Shown one piece after another: positions 2,882 to 38,446 of a DNA stretch of 38,446 nt. The DNA is taken from positions 1-38,446 of the IMG/VR virus record IMGVR_UViG_3300048837_001175, one strand, 5' to 3'. The notes under the pieces are model-generated. The model searched no databases, had not been told where the DNA came from, and was given only the letters and a program-made list of their open reading frames with translations. A program made the translations under genes and the position numbers. This stretch comes from a virus. How positions within the stretch are numbered: position 1 is the stretch's first letter; each line of letters begins with the position of its first letter.

Positions 2882-3340
2882 ATGAGCTTAACTACCTGGG
2901 CGGCTGACATTATCCTGGAAGCCAAACGAATTTTTAAAATCGACCACGCCGCGACCGAGCAGGAAGTCCACGAGACACTGCGCGGCGTAAAAGCCGGCGA
3001 AGAAATCGAATCAGCTGTTCGTGCTGAATTCGAAAAGCAGATCACCGACCTGCAAGCGCAGGTAACGGAGCTGCAAGACGGCACCCAAGCACTCCAGAGC
3101 GCCGTAGCCGTATTGGAGGGCGAACGTGATACGCTACAGGCGAATCTCAGCGCACTCGAAACCGATAAAGCCGACCTCGAAAAGCAATTGGCTGACGCGC
3201 AGGCTGAAATCGGAAAGCTGAAGGAAACTTTGGCAGACACGCATACGGGCGGCGAGCCAGGTGGCGGATTAGCCCGCGCCTATGAGAAGAATCCCATGAA
3301 CAAACAGTACTTGAAGAATCGCGCAGCGCGTAACGCGTAG
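2882..3340 (+). CDS. Putative head scaffolding protein (coiled coil)
   Basis: The 152-residue protein is almost entirely charged, heptad-like helix from about residue 30 to 120 (repeated D-L-Q-A-Q-V-T-E-L-Q type segments), with a Gly-rich hinge (TGGEPGGG) and a basic tail ending KNRAARNA. It lies 4 nt after the protease and before the major capsid gene. This is the position and composition expected of a scaffold that the protease removes. The function comes from context; no sequence family is recognised. Confidence 0.55.
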   Translation: MSLTTWAADIILEAKRIFKIDHAATEQEVHETLRGVKAGEEIESAVRAEFEKQITDLQAQVTELQDGTQALQSAVAVLEGERDTLQANLSALETDKADLEKQLADAQAEIGKLKETLADTHTGGEPGGGLARAYEKNPMNKQYLKNRAARNA

Positions 3341-3382: not shown

Positions 3383-4348
3383 ATGTCTTTATCTGCGAAA
3401 CTCACCGATGTAGCTGCGTACCGCGACTACGTTCAGGATTTTTCCGATGATCTTATCATCAAAGCCTTTTACAGCGGCAAAACTCAGCTGGTAGCTGAAG
3501 TGCTGGAAGGTATCAAGGGCCGTTTGACCCTCACCCGTTTGAAAACTGCCGCAAACAAAGCCGTAGCCTGGTCGAAAGAATTCAGTGCTGCCGCCGACGC
3601 GGTTGAATTCGCCCCCCGACACCTCGATGTGGTCGCCATCAAACGCGACCTGTCGTTTGTGCCGCAGGAATTTGAAGCCACTTACCTGGGCTACATGCGC
3701 CGTCAAGGCCAGAATCCCGGGCAAGATTTGCCTATGGAGGGTTTCATCCTCGACGCGGTTCTGAAAACGCATGCCGAAGAGTTGGAGGCTGCTTTGTGGC
3801 AAGGGGTAAAAGCCGGCACCGTAACCGGCGGCACCACGCCGATGAACCAATGTTTCGACGGTTTCCTGGAAATCATCGCCGACGCCGTTACGGCGGGTAC
3901 CATCCCTGCCGGCCAGGTGATTGCAACGCCGGGCGGCTCTATCACCACCTCCAACATCGTAGCCCTGACCGAAAGCATGTGGAATACCCAGGGCGCAGGC
4001 TACAAAGAAGGGCAGGTGTACGTGTTCATGAGCTGGGCAAACTTTCAGAAATACCAGCAGGGGTACCGTGCGGACTACGGCAAGTATGTCAGCACCAACA
4101 AGGACGCCACCGTCACGCTGGATTTCAGCCAGAACGCAATCCTGATGCCGATGCCTGGCATGGGCACGAGCAACCGGATCATCATGACGCCGGGCAAAAA
4201 CCTGAAAGTGGGCTACGATCAGATCGGTGACCAAATGTTCGAATTCGAGCAAAACAAGCGTGTGGTTGATTTCTGGCTCGACTTCAAAGTAGGCTGCCAA
4301 ATCGCGCAGCTGGATGAAGGCGCACTGGTTGTAAACGACCTGGCTTAA
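3383..4348 (+). CDS. Major capsid protein
   Basis: The 321-residue protein is globular, of capsid-subunit size, and sits directly after the protease and scaffold candidate. It begins MSLSAKLTDVAAYRDY and has mixed alpha/beta composition without membrane or nucleotide-binding motifs. An HK97-type fold is the default expectation for a tailed phage but is not shown by a motif here. The long open frame on the opposite strand (3389-4354) is a codon-usage shadow. Confidence 0.75.
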   Translation: MSLSAKLTDVAAYRDYVQDFSDDLIIKAFYSGKTQLVAEVLEGIKGRLTLTRLKTAANKAVAWSKEFSAAADAVEFAPRHLDVVAIKRDLSFVPQEFEATYLGYMRRQGQNPGQDLPMEGFILDAVLKTHAEELEAALWQGVKAGTVTGGTTPMNQCFDGFLEIIADAVTAGTIPAGQVIATPGGSITTSNIVALTESMWNTQGAGYKEGQVYVFMSWANFQKYQQGYRADYGKYVSTNKDATVTLDFSQNAILMPMPGMGTSNRIIMTPGKNLKVGYDQIGDQMFEFEQNKRVVDFWLDFKVGCQIAQLDEGALVVNDLA

Positions 4349-17755: not shown

Positions 17756-18925
17756 CTATTGACAAGTAAATATTTCATCAAACTTTTTCACCCCCGCAAC
17801 TTTCCTATCGTGGTCAGTGTGCGTATAAACCATGGTTGTTTCAAGTTTGCTATGCCCCATAATTTCGCGTAGCTCTTCAACCTTCCCGCCCATCAGCAAG
17901 TAGAGAAACCCAAAAGTGTGGCGCCCTACGTGCGTCGTCAGCTTCTTTTTAATACCTGCTATGGTGGCAACTTCTTTCAATCTGGCATTGGTAGTGGCAT
18001 CAGCGGGGATGCTAAAAAGCTTGCCACCTTTCCCGCCACCGTCCTGGATTAGTTCTTTAGCCAGCACCGACAACGGAATCCGTACAATCTTGCGATGGCG
18101 CTTTGTTTTTTGCGGGATCAATACCAACATATCTCCCTCAATATCGTCGGTGGTCAGGTTGTGTACATCACTTACGCGCAGAGAGGTAACGCACTGAAAA
18201 AGGAACTGGCAAAGTGCGCGCTGGAGTGGATCACCCAGCGCCTTAGATCGGTACAAGTTCACTAACGTATCTACTTCAAGAACGGTTAGCCAGGTGCGTT
18301 CTACCGCCACCGACCGAATTTTAAACTGGTCGTAAGGGTTTGCAATCCGAAGGCGCTTTTTTTGAGCAAGCAGGATGAACTTACGGAGCACTGTGTGGTA
18401 CTTCGCCCTGGAGTTGTCATTTATCCGTTTTAACCTCAGATGCCGGTCAAAACCCTGTACCAAATCGAAGTTAACATCTGCCAGCGTGACGTTAGGCATA
18501 TATGCCTTCAAGTGGCCGATAGTCGACCTATAGGTATTAATGGTGCTGGGCTCTTTGTCGGCTCGCTCCTTTTCCGTTTCCTTCTCAATAAAAGCGACAA
18601 ATGACTCTAGTGCAGGTCGATTATCTAGTTCAGCAACAAACGTCGCCGGCGATATCACCACCCCCGACATCCGGGATTCAAAAAACATTTCCTCGACGCG
18701 GCTCTTATATTTGGCCAGTATTGCGTTCACTCTCGATTCCTTTTCCCGGTCTTTAGGTATGCGCGCCACCTGTCTGGTATCATCCCATTCAGCCTCCGTC
18801 AGGTACAAATCCATTCGAATTCGTACCCGATGGCCACCTAAAAAGGCTTGCAAGTGCAGGCCATAGGTTCCGTCCGACAATCGGTGATCTTTTCGGAGTG
18901 AAAACTTGCTGGTGTACTTAATCAT
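17756..18925 (-). CDS. int: Tyrosine recombinase (phage integrase)
   Basis: The 389-residue protein has an N-terminal arm-binding domain (about 1-95), a SAM-like core-binding domain (105-205) and a catalytic domain (210-389). All six catalytic positions are present: Arg250 (TSLRVSD), Lys in PQKTKRHRK (about 273), His332 and Arg335 (THVGRHTF), His358 (MGHSKLETT) and Tyr367 (MVYTHTD). The arrangement is typical of Bacteroidota site-specific recombinases. I chose the ATG at 18925; an in-frame TTG at 18970 would run through the TGTGGCG repeats. The adjacent repeats are its probable arm-type sites. It integrates and, with a directionality factor not identified here, excises the prophage. Confidence 0.93.
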   Translation of the reverse strand: MIKYTSKFSLRKDHRLSDGTYGLHLQAFLGGHRVRIRMDLYLTEAEWDDTRQVARIPKDREKESRVNAILAKYKSRVEEMFFESRMSGVVISPATFVAELDNRPALESFVAFIEKETEKERADKEPSTINTYRSTIGHLKAYMPNVTLADVNFDLVQGFDRHLRLKRINDNSRAKYHTVLRKFILLAQKKRLRIANPYDQFKIRSVAVERTWLTVLEVDTLVNLYRSKALGDPLQRALCQFLFQCVTSLRVSDVHNLTTDDIEGDMLVLIPQKTKRHRKIVRIPLSVLAKELIQDGGGKGGKLFSIPADATTNARLKEVATIAGIKKKLTTHVGRHTFGFLYLLMGGKVEELREIMGHSKLETTMVYTHTDHDRKVAGVKKFDEIFTCQ

Positions 18926-18928
18926 TAT

Positions 18929-19190
18929 GTGGCGCGGGGTTGTGGCGTAATTGTGGCGTGTATGCCCCAAAAAGAAACGCTGACAGTATTGACTATCAGC
19001 GTTTTAGGTTGCGGTTTTACCGCTTCGGTGGTACCTCCCAGAATACCACAAAAAATCCCAACAAGTTGACCAACAACCAGTTGTACCAATAAAAATGCAG
19101 GCGTGTGGCGCATCTGTGGCTTATTTTGCAATTCAATGTTTCCGATTAAAAATATTAATCAGTTGGAAATCAATACTTTGTGTTGTGGCG
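18929..19190. other. Probable attP: six TGTGGCG direct repeats around a structured core
   Basis: TGTGGCG starts at 18929, 18941, 18952, 19104 and 19184, with TGTGGCT at 19114-19120, all in one orientation. The groups have 10-12 bp (about one helical turn) spacing. They flank about 145 bp containing inverted repeats (18975-19004; GCGG-tttta-CCGC near 19011-19023). Clustered, helically phased repeats beside an integrase gene are how arm-type sites look. I cannot define the exact core without the host sequence. The left cluster overlaps the integrase leader, so it could also act in autoregulation. Confidence 0.6.
18975..19004 (-). terminator. Inverted repeat, possible leftward terminator or att core
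   Basis: Arms of 9 + 3 bp with one mismatch (18975-18987 and 18992-19004) and a 4-nt loop. Read on the - strand, the hairpin is followed by CTTTTTGG, so it could terminate the transcript of the secreted-protein gene before the integrase. It is also centred between the TGTGGCG clusters. Confidence 0.45.
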
Positions 19191-26254: not shown

Positions 26255-26412
26255 TTTTTCCAGAGTACCTTATTTTTTTTCCTACATTTCCTACAATACC
26301 TACAAAGACTATAACAAATTAAAAATCAAAGAATTGCAAAACTAAAACCTGTAGGAAACCACAAAAAAATGTAGGAAAATGTAGGAAAACTGTCGGAATG
26401 TAGGAATGTAGG
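26138..26412. other. Iteron-like array, candidate replication origin
   Basis: CCTACA occurs at 26138, 26158, 26281, 26290 and 26299 (the last three at 9-bp period). Its complement TGTAGG occurs at 26350, 26370, 26380, 26399 and 26407, with TGTCGG at 26391. The two orientations flank an AT-rich core (26305-26349). The outer pair on each side is spaced 20 bp. The array lies directly after primase and helicase genes. These are the features of an iteron-controlled origin; a regulatory operator is the alternative. The gap 26255-26467 holds nothing else. Confidence 0.65.
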
Positions 26413-26467
26413 AAAAATCGAAGTTTAAAATGGATGGGTCTGAAAAAAAAACAAAAAAAATCTACTC

Positions 26468-26674: not shown

Positions 26675-27243
26675 AATCCGTCACCATCCTCTTCACACGC
26701 CAAGACAGCATCTACAAGCAGATGCCCGATTGCGATGTATACGACATCGAGCGCAACGCGCTGACTTTCCCTGGCGGTATGCCTGTTGTGGCTCACCCAC
26801 CATGCCGGTCGTGGGGTAGCCTTCGCGGCTTGGCAAAACCATTGCCAGGTGAGAAAGAATTGGCTATCTGGGCGGTCGATCAGGTACGTAAATGGGGGGG
26901 GGTATTGGAACACCCTGCAGCCAGCCAATTGTGGCCAGTTATGGGCCTTCCTAAAGGCACTGGCCGGGATAATTTCGGGGGCTTTTCGCTTCATATTGAC
27001 CAATCATGGTTTGGTCACCGAGCTCAGAAAAAAACGCTTCTATACATCTGCGGAGTCGAGCCTGTTGATATTCCCGCATACCCTGTACGATTTGATGTTG
27101 TCACCCATGTTGTCACGAATAGAAAGGGCATACGGGCGGGGCATCCCAGATTTAAAAGCGAAATCTCTAAGGCCGAACGCGAACACACACCAAAACAGCT
27201 GGCCGAATGGCTGGTCGAACTTGCTAAAAAATGTAAACGATGA
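26671..27243 (+). CDS. PPC-motif protein related to C5 methylase folds
   Basis: The 190-residue protein has AHPPCRSWGS (PPC at 43-45) and VLEHPAAS (79-85). These resemble motifs IV (catalytic PPC) and VI (ENV) of cytosine-5 methyltransferases, but I see no N-terminal SAM-binding FxGxG and the protein is much shorter than the family. Phages often carry such proteins beside Dam-type methylases. It overlaps both neighbours by 4 nt. A run of nine G at 26894-26902 could cause slippage. It may be a reduced methylase-like enzyme or a DNA-modification accessory. Confidence 0.5.
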   Translation: MKSVTILFTRQDSIYKQMPDCDVYDIERNALTFPGGMPVVAHPPCRSWGSLRGLAKPLPGEKELAIWAVDQVRKWGGVLEHPAASQLWPVMGLPKGTGRDNFGGFSLHIDQSWFGHRAQKKTLLYICGVEPVDIPAYPVRFDVVTHVVTNRKGIRAGHPRFKSEISKAEREHTPKQLAEWLVELAKKCKR

Positions 27244-28055
27244 TAGCTTTTGCATACTACGGAGCCAAAAACAGATTATTGAATCAACTCCTTCAATATC
27301 TGCCGGCATGTGATCACTACAGCGAGCCCTTCTGTGGGAGCGCTGCGGTGATATTGAACCGACCAGCGGCACCGATTGAATCAATCAATGATATAAATGG
27401 TGACATCGTCAATTTTTTCAAAGTATTGCGCGACCGCCCTGATTGTTTAGTCTCAAAGCTATTGCTTACCCCATACGCTTACGAAGAGTTTAGGCAAGCA
27501 TGGCTACCAATTGAAGATGAAATTGAACGGGCCCGGCGTTTTTATATTCGAACACAAATGGACGTTGCAAAGGCCTGCGCATTAAAAGATAAATCGTGGA
27601 GCGTAAACAAAAAGTTTGTTGCTGGAGGTCATTCATACTGTGTCAAGAATTTTCATCACAAAATTCCTGGATTAATGGATGTCGCGAACCGATTAAAGAA
27701 TGTTCAAATTGATAATCGTAGCGCTATTGATCACATTAAAAAGTTTGACACCAAAGAAACTTTATTCTATTGCGATCCACCGTACCTGCCTGACACCCGC
27801 AAGTCAGCAAATGATTACAAGTTTGAAATGGATGTAGATGATCACTATCAGTTAGCTGTAGTGTTGAATGGAATAAAAGGCCGAGCAGCCATATCCGGAT
27901 ACGATAGCCCTTTAATGGGTGAATTTTATCAAGGGTGGATTAAAGTGAAATTCAAATCGGCACAGGTTCCAATGAGCAGGGGTTCCGGACTTGTCCGGCA
28001 AGAGTGTCTTTGGCTAAATTATAAACCTTCAATTCAAACAGAACTATTTTCATGA
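27240..28055 (+). CDS. Dam-type DNA adenine N6-methyltransferase
   Basis: The 271-residue protein shows the D12-class order: YYGAKNRLL at 6-14, the SAM-binding motif SEPFCGSAAV (28-37), a variable recognition region, and the catalytic motif FYCDPPY (DPPY at 179-182). C-terminal motif NGIKGRAAISGYDS fits the family. It would methylate adenine in phage DNA, probably to avoid host restriction or to alter regulation. Sequence specificity cannot be read. It is embedded in the early operon with ATGA overlaps at both ends. Confidence 0.88.
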   Translation: MIAFAYYGAKNRLLNQLLQYLPACDHYSEPFCGSAAVILNRPAAPIESINDINGDIVNFFKVLRDRPDCLVSKLLLTPYAYEEFRQAWLPIEDEIERARRFYIRTQMDVAKACALKDKSWSVNKKFVAGGHSYCVKNFHHKIPGLMDVANRLKNVQIDNRSAIDHIKKFDTKETLFYCDPPYLPDTRKSANDYKFEMDVDDHYQLAVVLNGIKGRAAISGYDSPLMGEFYQGWIKVKFKSAQVPMSRGSGLVRQECLWLNYKPSIQTELFS

Positions 28056-28441: not shown

Positions 28442-28654
28442 ATGCACAATGAACCACAAACCGTTGGAGAGCAACGAGTGCGCACACAGTTTAACCCGTC
28501 ACAAGATTCCATCGTTGATCAGATTAAACAACAAACGGCCCATTTAATCAACCTGGTAGAATCGCTCAAAGCTCGCGACCCTCGCTTAGCCTCCATTGCC
28601 CAAACCGCCTATGAAGAGGCCGCAATGTGGGCGGTAAAAGCAGCAACCGCCTAA
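28442..28654 (+). CDS. Acb2/Tad1-type hairpin protein, likely anti-CBASS sponge
   Basis: The 70-residue protein has a short extended N-terminus (TVGEQRVRTQFNPS), a first helix (DSIVDQIKQQTAHLINLVESL), a tight turn with DPR, and a second helix ending YEEAAMWAVKAATA. I associate this two-helix pattern, with a terminal A-x-MWAVKAxT, with the Acb2/Tad1 hairpin family. Its characterised members sequester cyclic oligonucleotides and so block CBASS or Thoeris-type signalling (known for the family, not shown here). It opens the accessory block and is followed by a long hairpin. Confidence 0.7.
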   Translation: MHNEPQTVGEQRVRTQFNPSQDSIVDQIKQQTAHLINLVESLKARDPRLASIAQTAYEEAAMWAVKAATA

Positions 28655-28664
28655 ACTTTCACCA

Positions 28665-28722
28665 CCCACGCTCCCCGGCAGTTATCTGGTTAATGTCTGT
28701 GACGGTGGGGGCGTGGGGTTTT
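28665..28722 (+). terminator. Long hairpin E1 after the sponge gene
   Basis: An 11-bp stem with one wobble pair (28665-28675 with 28707-28717) encloses 31 nt and is followed by TTTT. It is probably a terminator. A TTTTAAAAAC box follows before the next ATG, as also occurs before 30167 and 30639. Confidence 0.55.
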
Positions 28723-28736
28723 AAAAACGAAACATC

Positions 28737-29141
28737 ATGAAACACATTTGTTCTTACCAAACCGCCAAACTTTTAAAAGAGGCTGGATTCCCTGCGCCAG
28801 AGCCTGCCTTTGGGCAGTTTTGGTACTCCAATATTGGCTATTGTTTTGTCTGTCCGAAAGCCATCATACAGATTCTGATCCCGGAGACTTATATCACCGG
28901 GATTACCAATACAAGCGACTCATTAAGTAGATCATCCCACCCGGATGAGATTATTAAAAACTGTACATATACTCCATCGGTAATTGACATCCTGGAACAT
29001 GAACTGATGGAAGGTTATTGGATCACTTATGATGGCAAAGAATGGAGTTGCGGTGATACTTGGACCCCATGGTGTGACAATGAAAACCCAGCCGAAGCTG
29101 CTGCACTTCAATTTTTAAGAATTGTAAATTCAAAAGCATGA
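28737..29141 (+). CDS. Unknown accessory protein (134 residues)
   Basis: The protein starts MKHICSYQTAKLLKEAGFPAPEP, has several Cys and many aromatic residues (WITYDGKEWSCGDTWTPWCDNE), and ends in a helix (AAALQFLRIVN). It is of a type frequent in Bacteroidota phage accessory regions, without known function. The start of the next gene overlaps its stop. Confidence 0.6.
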   Translation: MKHICSYQTAKLLKEAGFPAPEPAFGQFWYSNIGYCFVCPKAIIQILIPETYITGITNTSDSLSRSSHPDEIIKNCTYTPSVIDILEHELMEGYWITYDGKEWSCGDTWTPWCDNENPAEAAALQFLRIVNSKA

Positions 29142-29464: not shown

Positions 29465-29737
29465 ATGGAACGAATAAAATTTGAAACACTTGAATACGCC
29501 CGCATTGAAGGGGTAGGGCTCATTAGGCTTGCAACCGATTTCGATAAAATGACCATCCACCAAGCTATAAATGCTAAATCCCACATGGGTGGGCTCCCAA
29601 CCCGATACCAAAAAAACAAAGCCGGCGTTCGCGGACCTGAACACATGAGGGCTTTTATATCAATCTGTCGGTGCGCAATTGATATGTACAAGTCCGCTCC
29701 TAATCGAGATGGATATCTTTTACCTAATTGTTTTTAA
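29465..29737 (+). CDS. Unknown accessory protein (90 residues)
   Basis: The protein starts MERIKFETLEYARIEGVGL. It is basic, with a segment GGLPTRYQKNKAGVRGPEHM and a helical C-terminus with two Cys. It starts 6 nt after the previous stop. Element E2 begins directly after its stop codon. No family recognised. Confidence 0.5.
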   Translation: MERIKFETLEYARIEGVGLIRLATDFDKMTIHQAINAKSHMGGLPTRYQKNKAGVRGPEHMRAFISICRCAIDMYKSAPNRDGYLLPNCF

Positions 29738-29800
29738 GCCCCGGCCAGGCAGCGCGGTGCACAGCCGCGTTTCGGGCGGGATAACATTTCACCTTTTCAA
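29738..29800 (+). repeat. Structured intergenic element E2
   Basis: It begins at the previous stop codon, contains the hairpin CGCGG-TGCACAG-CCGCG, and then GATAACATTTCACC and TTTCAAG shared with E4 at 30551. It precedes the gene at 29810. Confidence 0.65.
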
Positions 29801-29809
29801 GGAAACACG

Positions 29810-30061
29810 ATGATCCCTCTAAATAAAATTAACAAAATCAGGAGAGAAAGACCTGACAAGATTGCCCAGTTTTTGACTAAAAACGGGCAAAGCCTGGTGC
29901 GAATCTGGTCAGATCAGTGGGGTTTATATTGGCGTTCAGGTCGGGCTGGATACACCAAAACCCTTTGCGAAGCCGGAACATACACACTTGAAGAAGCTTA
30001 CCAAGCTACAAGTCACTGCGGCCCAGAAAAAGAGATTCATTACGATTTCATCCGATCTTAA
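29810..30061 (+). CDS. Unknown accessory protein (83 residues)
   Basis: The protein starts MIPLNKINKIRRERPDK. It is basic, with many Trp/Tyr residues (SDQWGLYWRSGRAGY) and ends HYDFIRS. It is flanked by structured elements E2 and E3. Function unknown. Confidence 0.5.
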   Translation: MIPLNKINKIRRERPDKIAQFLTKNGQSLVRIWSDQWGLYWRSGRAGYTKTLCEAGTYTLEEAYQATSHCGPEKEIHYDFIRS

Positions 30062-30079
30062 CTACATCCCGCCCCCGCA

Positions 30080-30147
30080 TAACTCTAAGCCTACCGCCGC
30101 CGCGCATAGCGGTGTACGGTAGGCGACAGTTAGCAATTCATCATTCA
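30080..30147 (+). repeat. Structured intergenic element E3 (attC-like layout)
   Basis: TAAC (30080), 5 nt, GCCTACCG (30089-30096), inner hairpin CCGC-GCATA-GCGG, CGGTAGGC (30117-30124), 4 nt, GTTA (30129), then an AATTCATCATTCA tail. It matches E5 (30868-30935) with 4 mismatches over 68 nt. The TAAC...GTTA boxes outside an unpaired spacer and stem resemble a folded integron attC site, although the full GTTRRRY consensus is not met. Confidence 0.7.
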
Positions 30148-30166
30148 GTATTTAATTTTAAAAACA

Positions 30167-30550
30167 ATGACACCGATAAAGCAAACAATACTATCAAACC
30201 CCGACACTGGCACACGCGGTAATTGCTTTCAGGCCTGCCTTGCATCATTGCTCGATCTTCCAATTGAAAAAGTGCCGGATTTCCACGAAATGGGCACCGA
30301 TTGGGCAGACTCATTCTACGATTTCTTGGATCGCAATGGATGCTATTTTTACGGTACACCATCCTTTAACGCCATTGCTAGCGAAAAAGGGATAGATGGA
30401 TATGTCATCGTCGGGGGCACCAGCCCCAGAGGCATTATTAGTGGGCATTCTGTTATTTACAAGGATGGACAGCCATTTTTTGACCCGCATCCAAGTAATG
30501 ATTTTTTACTTGAGCCACAGGAGGTATATTCGATTGAACGTGACGCATAA
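30167..30550 (+). CDS. Putative papain-like cysteine peptidase-fold protein
   Basis: The 127-residue protein has TRGNCFQACLASLLDLP near the N-terminus (Cys20 on a helix after Gly-Asn), SGHSVIYKDGQPFFDPHPSND later (His94 and Asp106). Cys-His-Asp in this order with these spacings is the pattern of papain/NlpC/C39-like folds, and similar small proteins are common in phages. Whether it is an active protease, amidase or deubiquitinase-like factor cannot be told. It sits between elements E3 and E4. It could counter a host defence protein; this is speculative. Confidence 0.5.
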   Translation: MTPIKQTILSNPDTGTRGNCFQACLASLLDLPIEKVPDFHEMGTDWADSFYDFLDRNGCYFYGTPSFNAIASEKGIDGYVIVGGTSPRGIISGHSVIYKDGQPFFDPHPSNDFLLEPQEVYSIERDA

Positions 30551-30617
30551 TTCCTTGCCTACCGCCACCGCGCACAGCCGCGTTGCCTGGTGGGATAACA
30601 TTTCACCATTTCAAGTT
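30551..30617 (+). repeat. Structured intergenic element E4
   Basis: Its 5' half (CCTTGCCTACCGCC, then CCGCGCACAGC) matches E3/E5, while its 3' half (CACAGCCGCGTT ... GATAACATTTCACC ... TTTCAAG) matches E2, so it looks like a hybrid of the two types. CCTACC can pair with GGTGGG around an inner CGCG hairpin. It begins at the stop codon of the preceding gene. Confidence 0.6.
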
Positions 30618-30638
30618 TTAAAAACTCAAACCACTTTT

Positions 30639-30860
30639 ATGAAAAAGCAAAAATTTAAATTACAAGTTACCATGATTGTCGACGTGGAGATCGATCCCGA
30701 TTTTGCCGTTGTGCAAGAATATGATAGCACGGACGAACTGCTTTCAGATATTGTGTCGTATCGTTTTTCCCAGGTATTGCCAGTAATGCAGCATGCTGTT
30801 AAGGCTGAATTCCATGAAACTGAATTTGAAATTTTAGAGCATAGCATTTGCCTTGTCTAA
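30639..30860 (+). CDS. Unknown accessory protein (73 residues)
   Basis: The protein starts MKKQKFKLQVTMIVDVEID, an N-terminal beta strand pair, followed by an acidic helical middle and a C-terminal strand (EFEILEHSICLV). The ATG at 30639 is chosen because the longer frame upstream passes through the preceding gene and E4. It resembles small ferredoxin-like alpha/beta phage proteins. Function unknown. Confidence 0.55.
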   Translation: MKKQKFKLQVTMIVDVEIDPDFAVVQEYDSTDELLSDIVSYRFSQVLPVMQHAVKAEFHETEFEILEHSICLV

Positions 30861-30867
30861 TTGTGGC

Positions 30868-30935
30868 TAACTCCAAGCCTACCGCCTCCGCGCATAGCGG
30901 TGGACGGTAGGCGACAGTTATCAATTCATCATTCA
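30868..30935 (+). repeat. Structured intergenic element E5 (near-identical to E3)
   Basis: TAAC (30868), GCCTACCG (30877-30884), CCGC-GCATA-GCGG, CGGTAGGC (30905-30912), GTTA (30917) and the AATTCATCATTCA tail. There are four differences from E3 in 68 nt, and none breaks the stems. Confidence 0.75.
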
Positions 30936-30951
30936 CTTCAAAAATGACAAA

Positions 30952-31128
30952 ATGAAAATTCAAAAAAAACAAGTCGCCTTAATAGTCTATATGGTTGTTT
31001 GCTTTTATGGGATAAACTGGATCGCTCACCATTTTTTACCCAAATGGATTGACATTTTGGTAGGATTCACGCTTAGTATATACGCCATTTACAAAGGCTG
31101 TTTATTCTATTTGAATCGTTTTGGGTAA
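30952..31128 (+). CDS. Small two-helix membrane protein (58 residues)
   Basis: The ORF encodes MKIQKKQVALIVYMVV..., with hydrophobic helices at about 8-25 and 33-48 and short basic ends. It follows E5 and precedes a strong terminator, ending the accessory block. Topology is holin-like or like small membrane toxins/exclusion proteins; nothing distinguishes these. Confidence 0.5.
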   Translation: MKIQKKQVALIVYMVVCFYGINWIAHHFLPKWIDILVGFTLSIYAIYKGCLFYLNRFG

Positions 31129-31160: not shown

Positions 31161-31192
31161 GCCCCGGCGCCCACCAGCGCCGGGGCTTTTTT
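31161..31192 (+). terminator. Strong terminator ending the accessory block
   Basis: A perfect 10-bp GC-rich stem (31161-31170 with 31177-31186), a 6-nt loop and T6. Confidence 0.95.
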
Positions 31193-37090: not shown

Positions 37091-38446
37091 TCATTTTACT
37101 CAGCTTCATTCCCCTGGCTACTTCGTGCCAGGTCACCAGCGACACCAAGGACTACCAGACCGCCCTAAAGCGGCTGCGTGTCGGCACCGACACCAGTAAG
37201 TACTTCACCACCATTGCCACGGTGATCAACAACGTGGCCACCCACCGCCAAAGCCCGACGGCCAAAGCGGTGTACGATTATATCAAAAGCCTGAATATCG
37301 TAGCCAAGGACACGGTCGCCGGTGGTGACCTTGCCGGCACATACCCAAACCCAACGGTAGATGGGCTTCAAGGCCGTGCCGTATCTGGAACAGCACCGGG
37401 CACCGGCGAAGTATTAAAGTGGAATGGCATCGCCTGGGCGCCCGCAGCGGATGCTACCGGTGGCGGCGGCATCACCGACGGCGACAAAGGCGACGTAGAT
37501 GTGACGAGTAGCGGAGCGGTGTGGACAGTGGATACGAACGCAGTAAATACAGTGAAGATCACAAACGGCGCGGTAACAATGGCCAAGATAAACCAGGCCG
37601 GTGCAACAAACGGCCAGGTGATTAAGTGGAACAACACATCGGGTGCTTGGGAGCCATCGGCCGATAATACAGGTTCTGGTGGATACGCAACGCTGCAAGA
37701 CGAAGGGACGTCCCAAACACCACAAACGACGGCCAGCTTTAACCAAACCAGTACAATAGATTTTTCGTTATCGGATGGCGGAACCAAAACAAATGTGACC
37801 GCATTCGTAAGGCAAAACTCCTTGGATGATTTCCATATTGCCCCCGATGCTATTGGCACAGATGAACTGGGCCCCGCCGCCGTCGAAGCGGATAACATTG
37901 CCCAAATGGGAGCTACCAACGGACAAGTACTCAAGTGGAACAATACATTGGGTGTATGGGAGCCATCGGCCGATAACACAGGCGGCTCTCCTGCATGGGG
38001 CACGATCACAGGCACCCTGTCGGCTCAAACGGATTTACAAGCGGCTTTAGACGGTAAGGTAGACGAGAACGCGCCAATCACCGGCGCCACAAAAACCAAA
38101 ATCACCTACGACGCTAAAGGCTTGGTTACGGCTGGCGCGGACGCCACGACGTCAGACATTGCAGAGGGATCCAATCTATATTATACCGATGAACGTGTAG
38201 ATGACCGTGTGAATGCCTTGACTGTCGCCGGCGCAGGTATTTCCAAAACCTACAACGATGCAGGAAACAGCCTGACGATTACCAACACAGGCGATACCAA
38301 TGCGTCTGACGATATCACAACAGCCAGCACCGCCGGCGGTGATCTTAGCGGCGCGTTCTCAAACCTTCAAATTGTAAACAATGCCGTGGATAACGCCACG
38401 ATGGCGGACAACGCTGTAAACACAGCGGAGATCACGAATGGTGCGG
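37072..38446 (+). CDS. Tail fibre protein, N-terminal part (continues at base 1)
   Basis: The gene starts inside the end of the previous gene and runs off the window; the rest is at 1-1685. The N-terminus (MVFRILIILLSFIPLATSC) looks like a lipoprotein or Sec signal peptide with Cys19, very unusual for a virion fibre. After a helical region, GGDLAGTYPNPTVDGL and EVLKWNGIAWAPAAD mark the repeated modules common in Bacteroidota fibres; module NGQVIKWNNT...WEPSAD recurs several times. It is expected to recognise the host surface. Confidence 0.75.
   Translation, partial: MVFRILIILLSFIPLATSCQVTSDTKDYQTALKRLRVGTDTSKYFTTIATVINNVATHRQSPTAKAVYDYIKSLNIVAKDTVAGGDLAGTYPNPTVDGLQGRAVSGTAPGTGEVLKWNGIAWAPAADATGGGGITDGDKGDVDVTSSGAVWTVDTNAVNTVKITNGAVTMAKINQAGATNGQVIKWNNTSGAWEPSADNTGSGGYATLQDEGTSQTPQTTASFNQTSTIDFSLSDGGTKTNVTAFVRQNSLDDFHIAPDAIGTDELGPAAVEADNIAQMGATNGQVLKWNNTLGVWEPSADNTGGSPAWGTITGTLSAQTDLQAALDGKVDENAPITGATKTKITYDAKGLVTAGADATTSDIAEGSNLYYTDERVDDRVNALTVAGAGISKTYNDAGNSLTITNTGDTNASDDITTASTAGGDLSGAFSNLQIVNNAVDNATMADNAVNTAEITNGA
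37557..37980 (+). repeat. First copy of the ~420-bp fibre duplication
   Basis: It corresponds to 94-514 at about 90% identity by eye. Differences are scattered, many of them at third codon positions. Confidence 0.85.
38336..38446. repeat. Right copy of the 111-bp terminal direct repeat
   Basis: Identical to bases 1-111. Removing one copy gives a circle of 38,335 bp with an uninterrupted fibre gene. Confidence 0.95.

Follow-up and report, generated by a model that had tools for sequence, protein, structure and literature searches.

Two hairpins that lie between small accessory genes of a phage genome, here denoted E3 and E5, are probably (roughly two chances in three, judging by the sequences compared) folded recombination sites of the attC kind that belong to a divergent family and are part of a CALIN-like cassette array without an integrase of its own, the integrase being provided in trans. 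The genome is IMG/VR record IMGVR_UViG_3300048837_001175, analyzed over its entire length of 38,446 nucleotides (hereafter, the window). It contains two attC-like sites 788 bp apart, a collinear relative contains five, and no intI is found; a CALIN is defined as two or more attC sites within 3-4 kb in the absence of intI, and the assignment depends on accepting the sites as attC. Since the relative retains such sites while sharing almost none of the intervening genes, phages may be able to exchange genes in cassette form even though they encode no integron integrase.

The original prediction placed four structured elements, E2 to E5, each filling a gap between small, unrelated genes, and these elements are real: they occupy the gaps between the plus-strand genes 29465-29737, 29810-30061, 30167-30550, 30639-30860 and 30952-31128. 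The gene at 29810..30061 encodes an 83-aa protein matching phrog_7674 (E 1.7e-5), with no assigned function; the product of 30167..30550 (127 aa) belongs to phrog_5845, also of unassigned function, some homologues being annotated as peptidases; and the 73-aa product of 30639..30860 has no database matches. None of the three has a homologue in the relative. The gene at 30952..31128 (58 aa, function unassigned) is followed by a terminator at 31161-31190. E3 (30077..30135) and E5 (30865..30923), both on the plus strand, are copies of a 68-nt repeat with 94% identity, that is, the four differences previously counted, and their RNA folds are far more stable than those of dinucleotide shuffles (z -7.1 and -5.6, respectively). 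Their layout is as described at the outset, TAAC, 5 nt, an 8-bp stem, 4 nt and GTTA, with each hairpin flanked by NNNNAAC and GTTNNNN boxes: in E3, an R''-like GCATAAC (30077-30083) and an R'-like GTTAGCA (30129-30135); in E5, GGCTAAC (30865-30871) and GTTATCA (30917-30923). Compared with the R' and R'' consensus sequences, GTTRRRY and RYYYAAC, the GTT and AAC are present and the rest is matched in part; the R' boxes deviate from GTTRRRY, as already noted against the attC interpretation. The remaining elements, likewise on the plus strand, fold less convincingly: E2 (29735..29803; z -2.4) is a hairpin of a second type, without a GTT box, the 3' half of which is shared with E4 (30545..30617; z -1.0). 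A model of all four elements detected no additional copy in the window, pattern scans of IMG/VR and GTDB genomes and blastn searches of phage and plasmid collections recovered no further copy, and no Rfam family matches the elements. Matches to GGGATAACATTTCACC elsewhere, located in unrelated places, were dismissed as chance.

Several other features of the genome deserve mention. The accessory region opens with a D12-class adenine methyltransferase (27240-28055, plus strand; PF02086, E 1.4e-22), and the 70-aa product of 28442-28654 (plus strand), encoded two genes upstream of the first gene neighbors of the array, contains an Acb2/Tad1 hairpin domain (PF24729, E 1.1e-12, over the cut-off), making it a candidate anti-CBASS protein. 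The first and last 111 bp (1-111 and 38336-38446) are an exact repeat, which would suit a genome that is complete and either circular or terminally redundant, and tandem-like coding repeats near both ends (75-520 and 37537-37982), with blocks 80-93% identical, perhaps represent a repetitive tail or fiber protein.

E4 is a mosaic, as claimed previously, with alignment scores and arm pairing in agreement. Its 5' half resembles E3 and E5 (z about 7.7) and not E2, and its 3' half, which is of the E2 type and lacks a GTT box, resembles E2 (z 14.2) and not E3 or E5. The 5' arm of E2 and the 3' arm of E4 pair at -33.5 kcal/mol, and the 5' arm of E4 and the 3' arm of E5 at -29.4 kcal/mol, compared with only -14.5 kcal/mol for the two arms of E4 together. 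Because the arms of E4 pair far better with the partner types than with each other, the junction is placed in the loop, GCA[C/T]AGC; two types of hairpins thus appear to have recombined within this common loop, and E4 would be the product of a separate exchange there. Gene 30167-30550 has its stop codon inside the 5'-half box of E4, GCATAAT. Neither E2 nor the 3' half of E4 resembles attC.

Behind each of the four hairpins lies a conserved tail, TANCAWTTCAYCATTYCA, 10-25 nt ahead of the next start codon on the plus strand: 29782..29799 behind E2, 30131..30148 behind E3 (two mismatches), 30596..30613 behind E4 (exact) and 30919..30936 behind E5 (two mismatches). The window contains five matches, the fifth with three mismatches, versus 0.67 expected; the tail is not a Shine-Dalgarno sequence. 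The recurrence at all four sites of a hairpin and, at a constant position ahead of the start codon, a conserved tail is what would be expected if the elements were shared regulatory stem-loops acting on mRNA or translation, where homologous recombination shuffles the accessory genes. Other phages have elements of this sort (PMC3203893, PMC7302621, PMC4503421), and the junction of E4 falls in the loop, as homologous exchange would have it. We nevertheless consider this explanation unlikely, given that it does not predict the complementarity of boxes across whole genes that is observed in the relative (see below), that the tail is absent from the sites of the relative, that in another phage a homologue of gene 30167-30550 has no such element beside it, and that neither promoter nor terminator signals exceed chance in a scan of sigma-70 type only. 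Intrinsic terminators at the elements were rejected at the scan level, the stems having no T-rich tail behind them, and so were sigma-70 promoters, for which a scan restricted to this type, as distinct from the Bacteroidota type, showed no excess. A regulatory role of the hairpin and tail, as proposed for the SAS/ESAS elements (PMC3203893), could coexist with the cassette role, and the elements may share a regulatory role, especially the conserved tail and E2. Upstream of the array, another hairpin (28655-28725, fold z -2.9) precedes gene 28737-29141 and is followed by the 10-mer TTTTAAAAAC, whose only two other occurrences are ahead of the genes at 30167 and 30639.

The relative, IMGVR_UViG_3300037189_022718 (40,010 bp), was found by a search with the helicase protein; searches with TerL, a portal motif and a structural protein yielded nothing better than a 16.7-kb fragment, which lacks the locus. 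Its contig starts at about the equivalent of window position 26,271, and the two phages are collinear (72% identity for TerL, 62% for the portal, 69% for the helicase and 53% for the DUF5675 gene). In the interval from the helicase to the DUF5675 gene, a single weak gene pair (25%) is common to both. There, the relative carries five hairpins of the E3/E5 layout, initially marked by eye: a (1684-1748), b (1997-2062), e1 (2784-2848), e2 (3124-3210) and e3 (4075-4139; coordinates of the relative's locus, L042). Site e3 retains the AACTC.AAGCC start of E3 and E5, the GCATA loop and the 5/4 spacers, with changes in the stem that preserve pairing. Across the five sites, five of the six pairs of the L stem are changed on both sides, and 90% of the cells pair, as counted in a MAFFT alignment with the structure assigned by the analyst. 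The genes between the sites include one resembling C5-methyltransferases (under the Pfam cut-off) and one resembling PAPS reductases (L042:3230-4048), which lies between two attC-like sites and has an SspD-like match (PADLOC, E 1.5e-12); the others have no assigned function, and BLAST searches of these cassettes against phages and plasmids gave no useful match. A possible link of L042:3230-4048 to phosphorothioate DNA modification can also be noted. Thus, the elements flank different genes in a related phage, the comparison that had been proposed as a check, and the pattern that was to count against the cassette interpretation, namely, the same genes and elements kept together without structural covariation, is the opposite of what is seen for sites of the E3/E5 type, where genes are replaced and stems covary. 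The same observations make it highly improbable that E3 and E5 are a mere local duplication of one hairpin with no function in exchange, as would otherwise be allowed by their identity (94% across the 68 nt, tail included) and by the presence of only four related copies in the window, because in the relative the same family comes with diverged, covarying stems and other genes. Behind the helicase gene, both phages have a non-coding stretch (26271-26457 in the window, L042:1-194 in the relative; 78% identical) that in the window is full of TGTAGGAA repeats in both orientations and is possibly a replication origin or an operator.

The relationship of these sites to classical attC was assessed with two covariance models. 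R2, built from eight class-1 attC sites of plasmid arrays, scores held-out attCs at 24-29 bits, with some divergent ones at about 12 bits or missed, and recovers all three attCs of phage TJE1 (19-27 bits). In the window, it recognizes none of the elements, which is where the proposed check with an attC model failed: the maximum anywhere is 9.8 bits, the scores at E3 and E5 are below 8 bits and out of register, and E2 is missed, as are all five sites of the relative. Without the relative, the misses in the window and the lack of IntI would have led to rejection of the attC reading. R3, trained solely on the five sites of the relative, matches E3 (21.3 bits) and E5 (20.9 bits) from end to end; these are its two highest scores in the window, the third being 13.2 bits, and it gives nothing comparable elsewhere in the relative's genome. 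It finds no class-1 and no TJE1 attCs, and neither model finds a site in Polaribacter phage P12002L. These results imply that E3, E5 and the sites of the relative make up one family, distinct from classical attC. E2 and E4, which as wholes R3 does not detect, are, by this model, not members of that family.

A second line of evidence comes from the ends of the cassettes. In integrons, a cassette is delimited by the 3' box of one attC and the 5' box of the attC that follows, and these two ends are complementary. In the relative, the complementarity between the boxes of consecutive sites is 7, 7, 8 and 8 of 8 bases, versus 5-6 of 8 for the two boxes within one site; the controls give 8, 8, 8, 8 and 7 for class-1 arrays and 8 and 8 for phage TJE1. 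The probability that both e1-e2 and e2-e3 reach 8/8 by chance is 1e-5 against AAC boxes drawn from the relative's genome, and since the end sequences vary between cassettes, they do not represent the constant terminal repeat that a transposon would have. In the window, only the pair from E3 to E5 fits the rule (7/8, P 0.014), which corresponds to a single two-gene cassette that contains E4; upstream, no partner exists for the 5' box of E3. The R'' boxes GCATAAC and GGCTAAC and the box GTTATGC are also present in genuine attCs. A mechanical scan for sites, run after the by-eye marking in the relative, ranks E5 first and E3 second in the window and, on the plus strand of the relative, e2 first, e3 second, e1 fourth and a eighth; the total of site-geometry matches in the window is no greater than in shuffles, and a loose geometric attC score does not separate E3 and E5 from chance there.

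As stated in the original prediction, no IntI is encoded: the integrase of the window (17756-18970), a tyrosine recombinase of the Phage_int_SAM_5 type, scores 38.6-40.5 bits, and that of the relative 33.1 bits, against the TIGR02249 cut-off of 265. Together with the best plasmid relatives, the integrase domains indicate that the host probably belongs to Bacteroidota. That each of the two phages has its own tyrosine recombinase, that the classical attC model and R3 fail to cross-detect, and that the asymmetries of the sites are mirrored would all fit sites that serve another recombinase, or a single-strand transposase acting on hairpins, and merely resemble attC. We regard this as improbable, considering that the cassette-end rule and the NNNNAAC and GTT boxes are integron hallmarks and that the integrases of the two phages show no significant similarity to each other, so that neither is an obvious common enzyme.

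Under the attC-like reading, a host integron would probably provide the integrase in trans, and this enzyme would recombine the folded single strand of the site, with genes entering and leaving as cassettes with complementary end boxes. The enzyme, the active strand and the mobility of the cassettes at present are what we infer here. E3, E5 and the five sites of the relative are imperfect palindromes with R''/R' and L''/L' arms and unpaired spacers. Bouvier et al. (PMC2727003) place the extra-helical bases of attC on the R''-L'' arm by definition and show that strand choice is governed by the first of these bases, with cutting in R' if the bottom strand is used and in R'' if the top strand is used. 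The aadA1 and TJE1 sites have extra bases on the 5' arm, at +8 after AAC and mostly also at +15. In the E3/E5 family, the 5'-arm extra-helical base is absent and is found only when the opposite strand is read: a, e1, e3 and E5 each have one extra base in the 3' arm, within +13 to +15; in E3 this place is taken by a 1x2 loop, and b and e2 have no clear counterpart. In all seven sites, the 5' spacer is one base longer than the 3' spacer, and the block repeated in E3/E5 and in a/b begins at or after the AAC box and extends past GTT into the next leader. From the mirrored spacers and bulges and this extent of the repeat, we propose, with less confidence than for the array itself, that the sites may point against the genes, each hairpin belonging to the gene behind it and the exchange occurring at the NNNNAAC box. 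Tentatively, and with the odds somewhat against it, they could then form an attC-like lineage with mirror-image asymmetry, in which the other strand would be recombined and the cut would fall at that box, the site traveling with the gene behind and the phages depending on a host integrase.

Taken together, these comparative observations strongly support the proposal that genes were acquired as attC cassettes where E3 and E5 are concerned, through gene replacement, covariation and the cassette-end rule in the relative; this support does not extend to E2 and the 3' half of E4, and given also the misses of the class-1 model, the mirrored extra-helical base and the lack of IntI, the attC reading is supported only in part. 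Should the usual models miss a divergent family of sites, the extent of cassette exchange in phages is underestimated, and collinear phages that keep the same kind of site while nearly all intervening genes are replaced would be direct evidence that accessory genes are renewed in cassette form, among them, in the present case, genes resembling methyltransferases and PAPS reductases. Such mirrored asymmetry, if true, would offer a natural test of strand choice by extra-helical bases.

Among known systems, the SAS/ESAS elements of cluster K mycobacteriophages (PMC3203893) similarly combine an inverted repeat with a short conserved sequence ahead of the starts of accessory genes, as do the 18-bp inverted repeats of cluster EG Microbacterium phages (PMC7302621); complementary boxes across genes are not reported for either, and SAS resembles a ribosome-binding site, whereas the tail described here, 10-25 nt from the start codon, does not. 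The PeSLs of T4-like phages (Arbiol 2010, Comeau 2014), to the extent that they are described in the citing article (PMC4503421), are also stem-loops between exchangeable small genes and are said to mediate modular shuffling; in that description, they are promoter-terminator composites, whereas neither signal exceeds chance here, in a promoter scan of sigma-70 type only. Classical class-1 attC sites, such as that of aadA1, share with the sites described here the NNNNAAC and GTTNNNN boxes, unpaired spacers, an imperfect palindrome of about 60 nt and stop codons at or in the R'' box, which contains a stop codon at two sites of the relative and at E4; the differences are in the spacers (5/6 in classical attC, 5/4 or 4/3 here), the single 3'-arm extra base and an R' box that is not GTTRRRY. 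Integrons appear rare in Bacteroidetes by current tools, with one complete integron, in Salinibacter (PMC9024848), and of the 10,705 phage genomes surveyed in a 2023 study, 21 had integrons or attC clusters (PMC9892861). The closest comparison is with the phage CALINs of that survey, in Tetrasphaera phage TJE1 and Polaribacter phage P12002L. For TJE1, three attCs were reported, and both of those assayed recombined with attI1 (PMC9892861); its sites fit the class-1 attC model and have 5'-arm extra-helical bases, unlike the sites described here. The phage CALINs nevertheless share with the present array small genes between folded sites, the lack of IntI, complementary cassette-end boxes (8/8 and 8/8 in TJE1) and the presence of methyltransferase genes among the cassettes.
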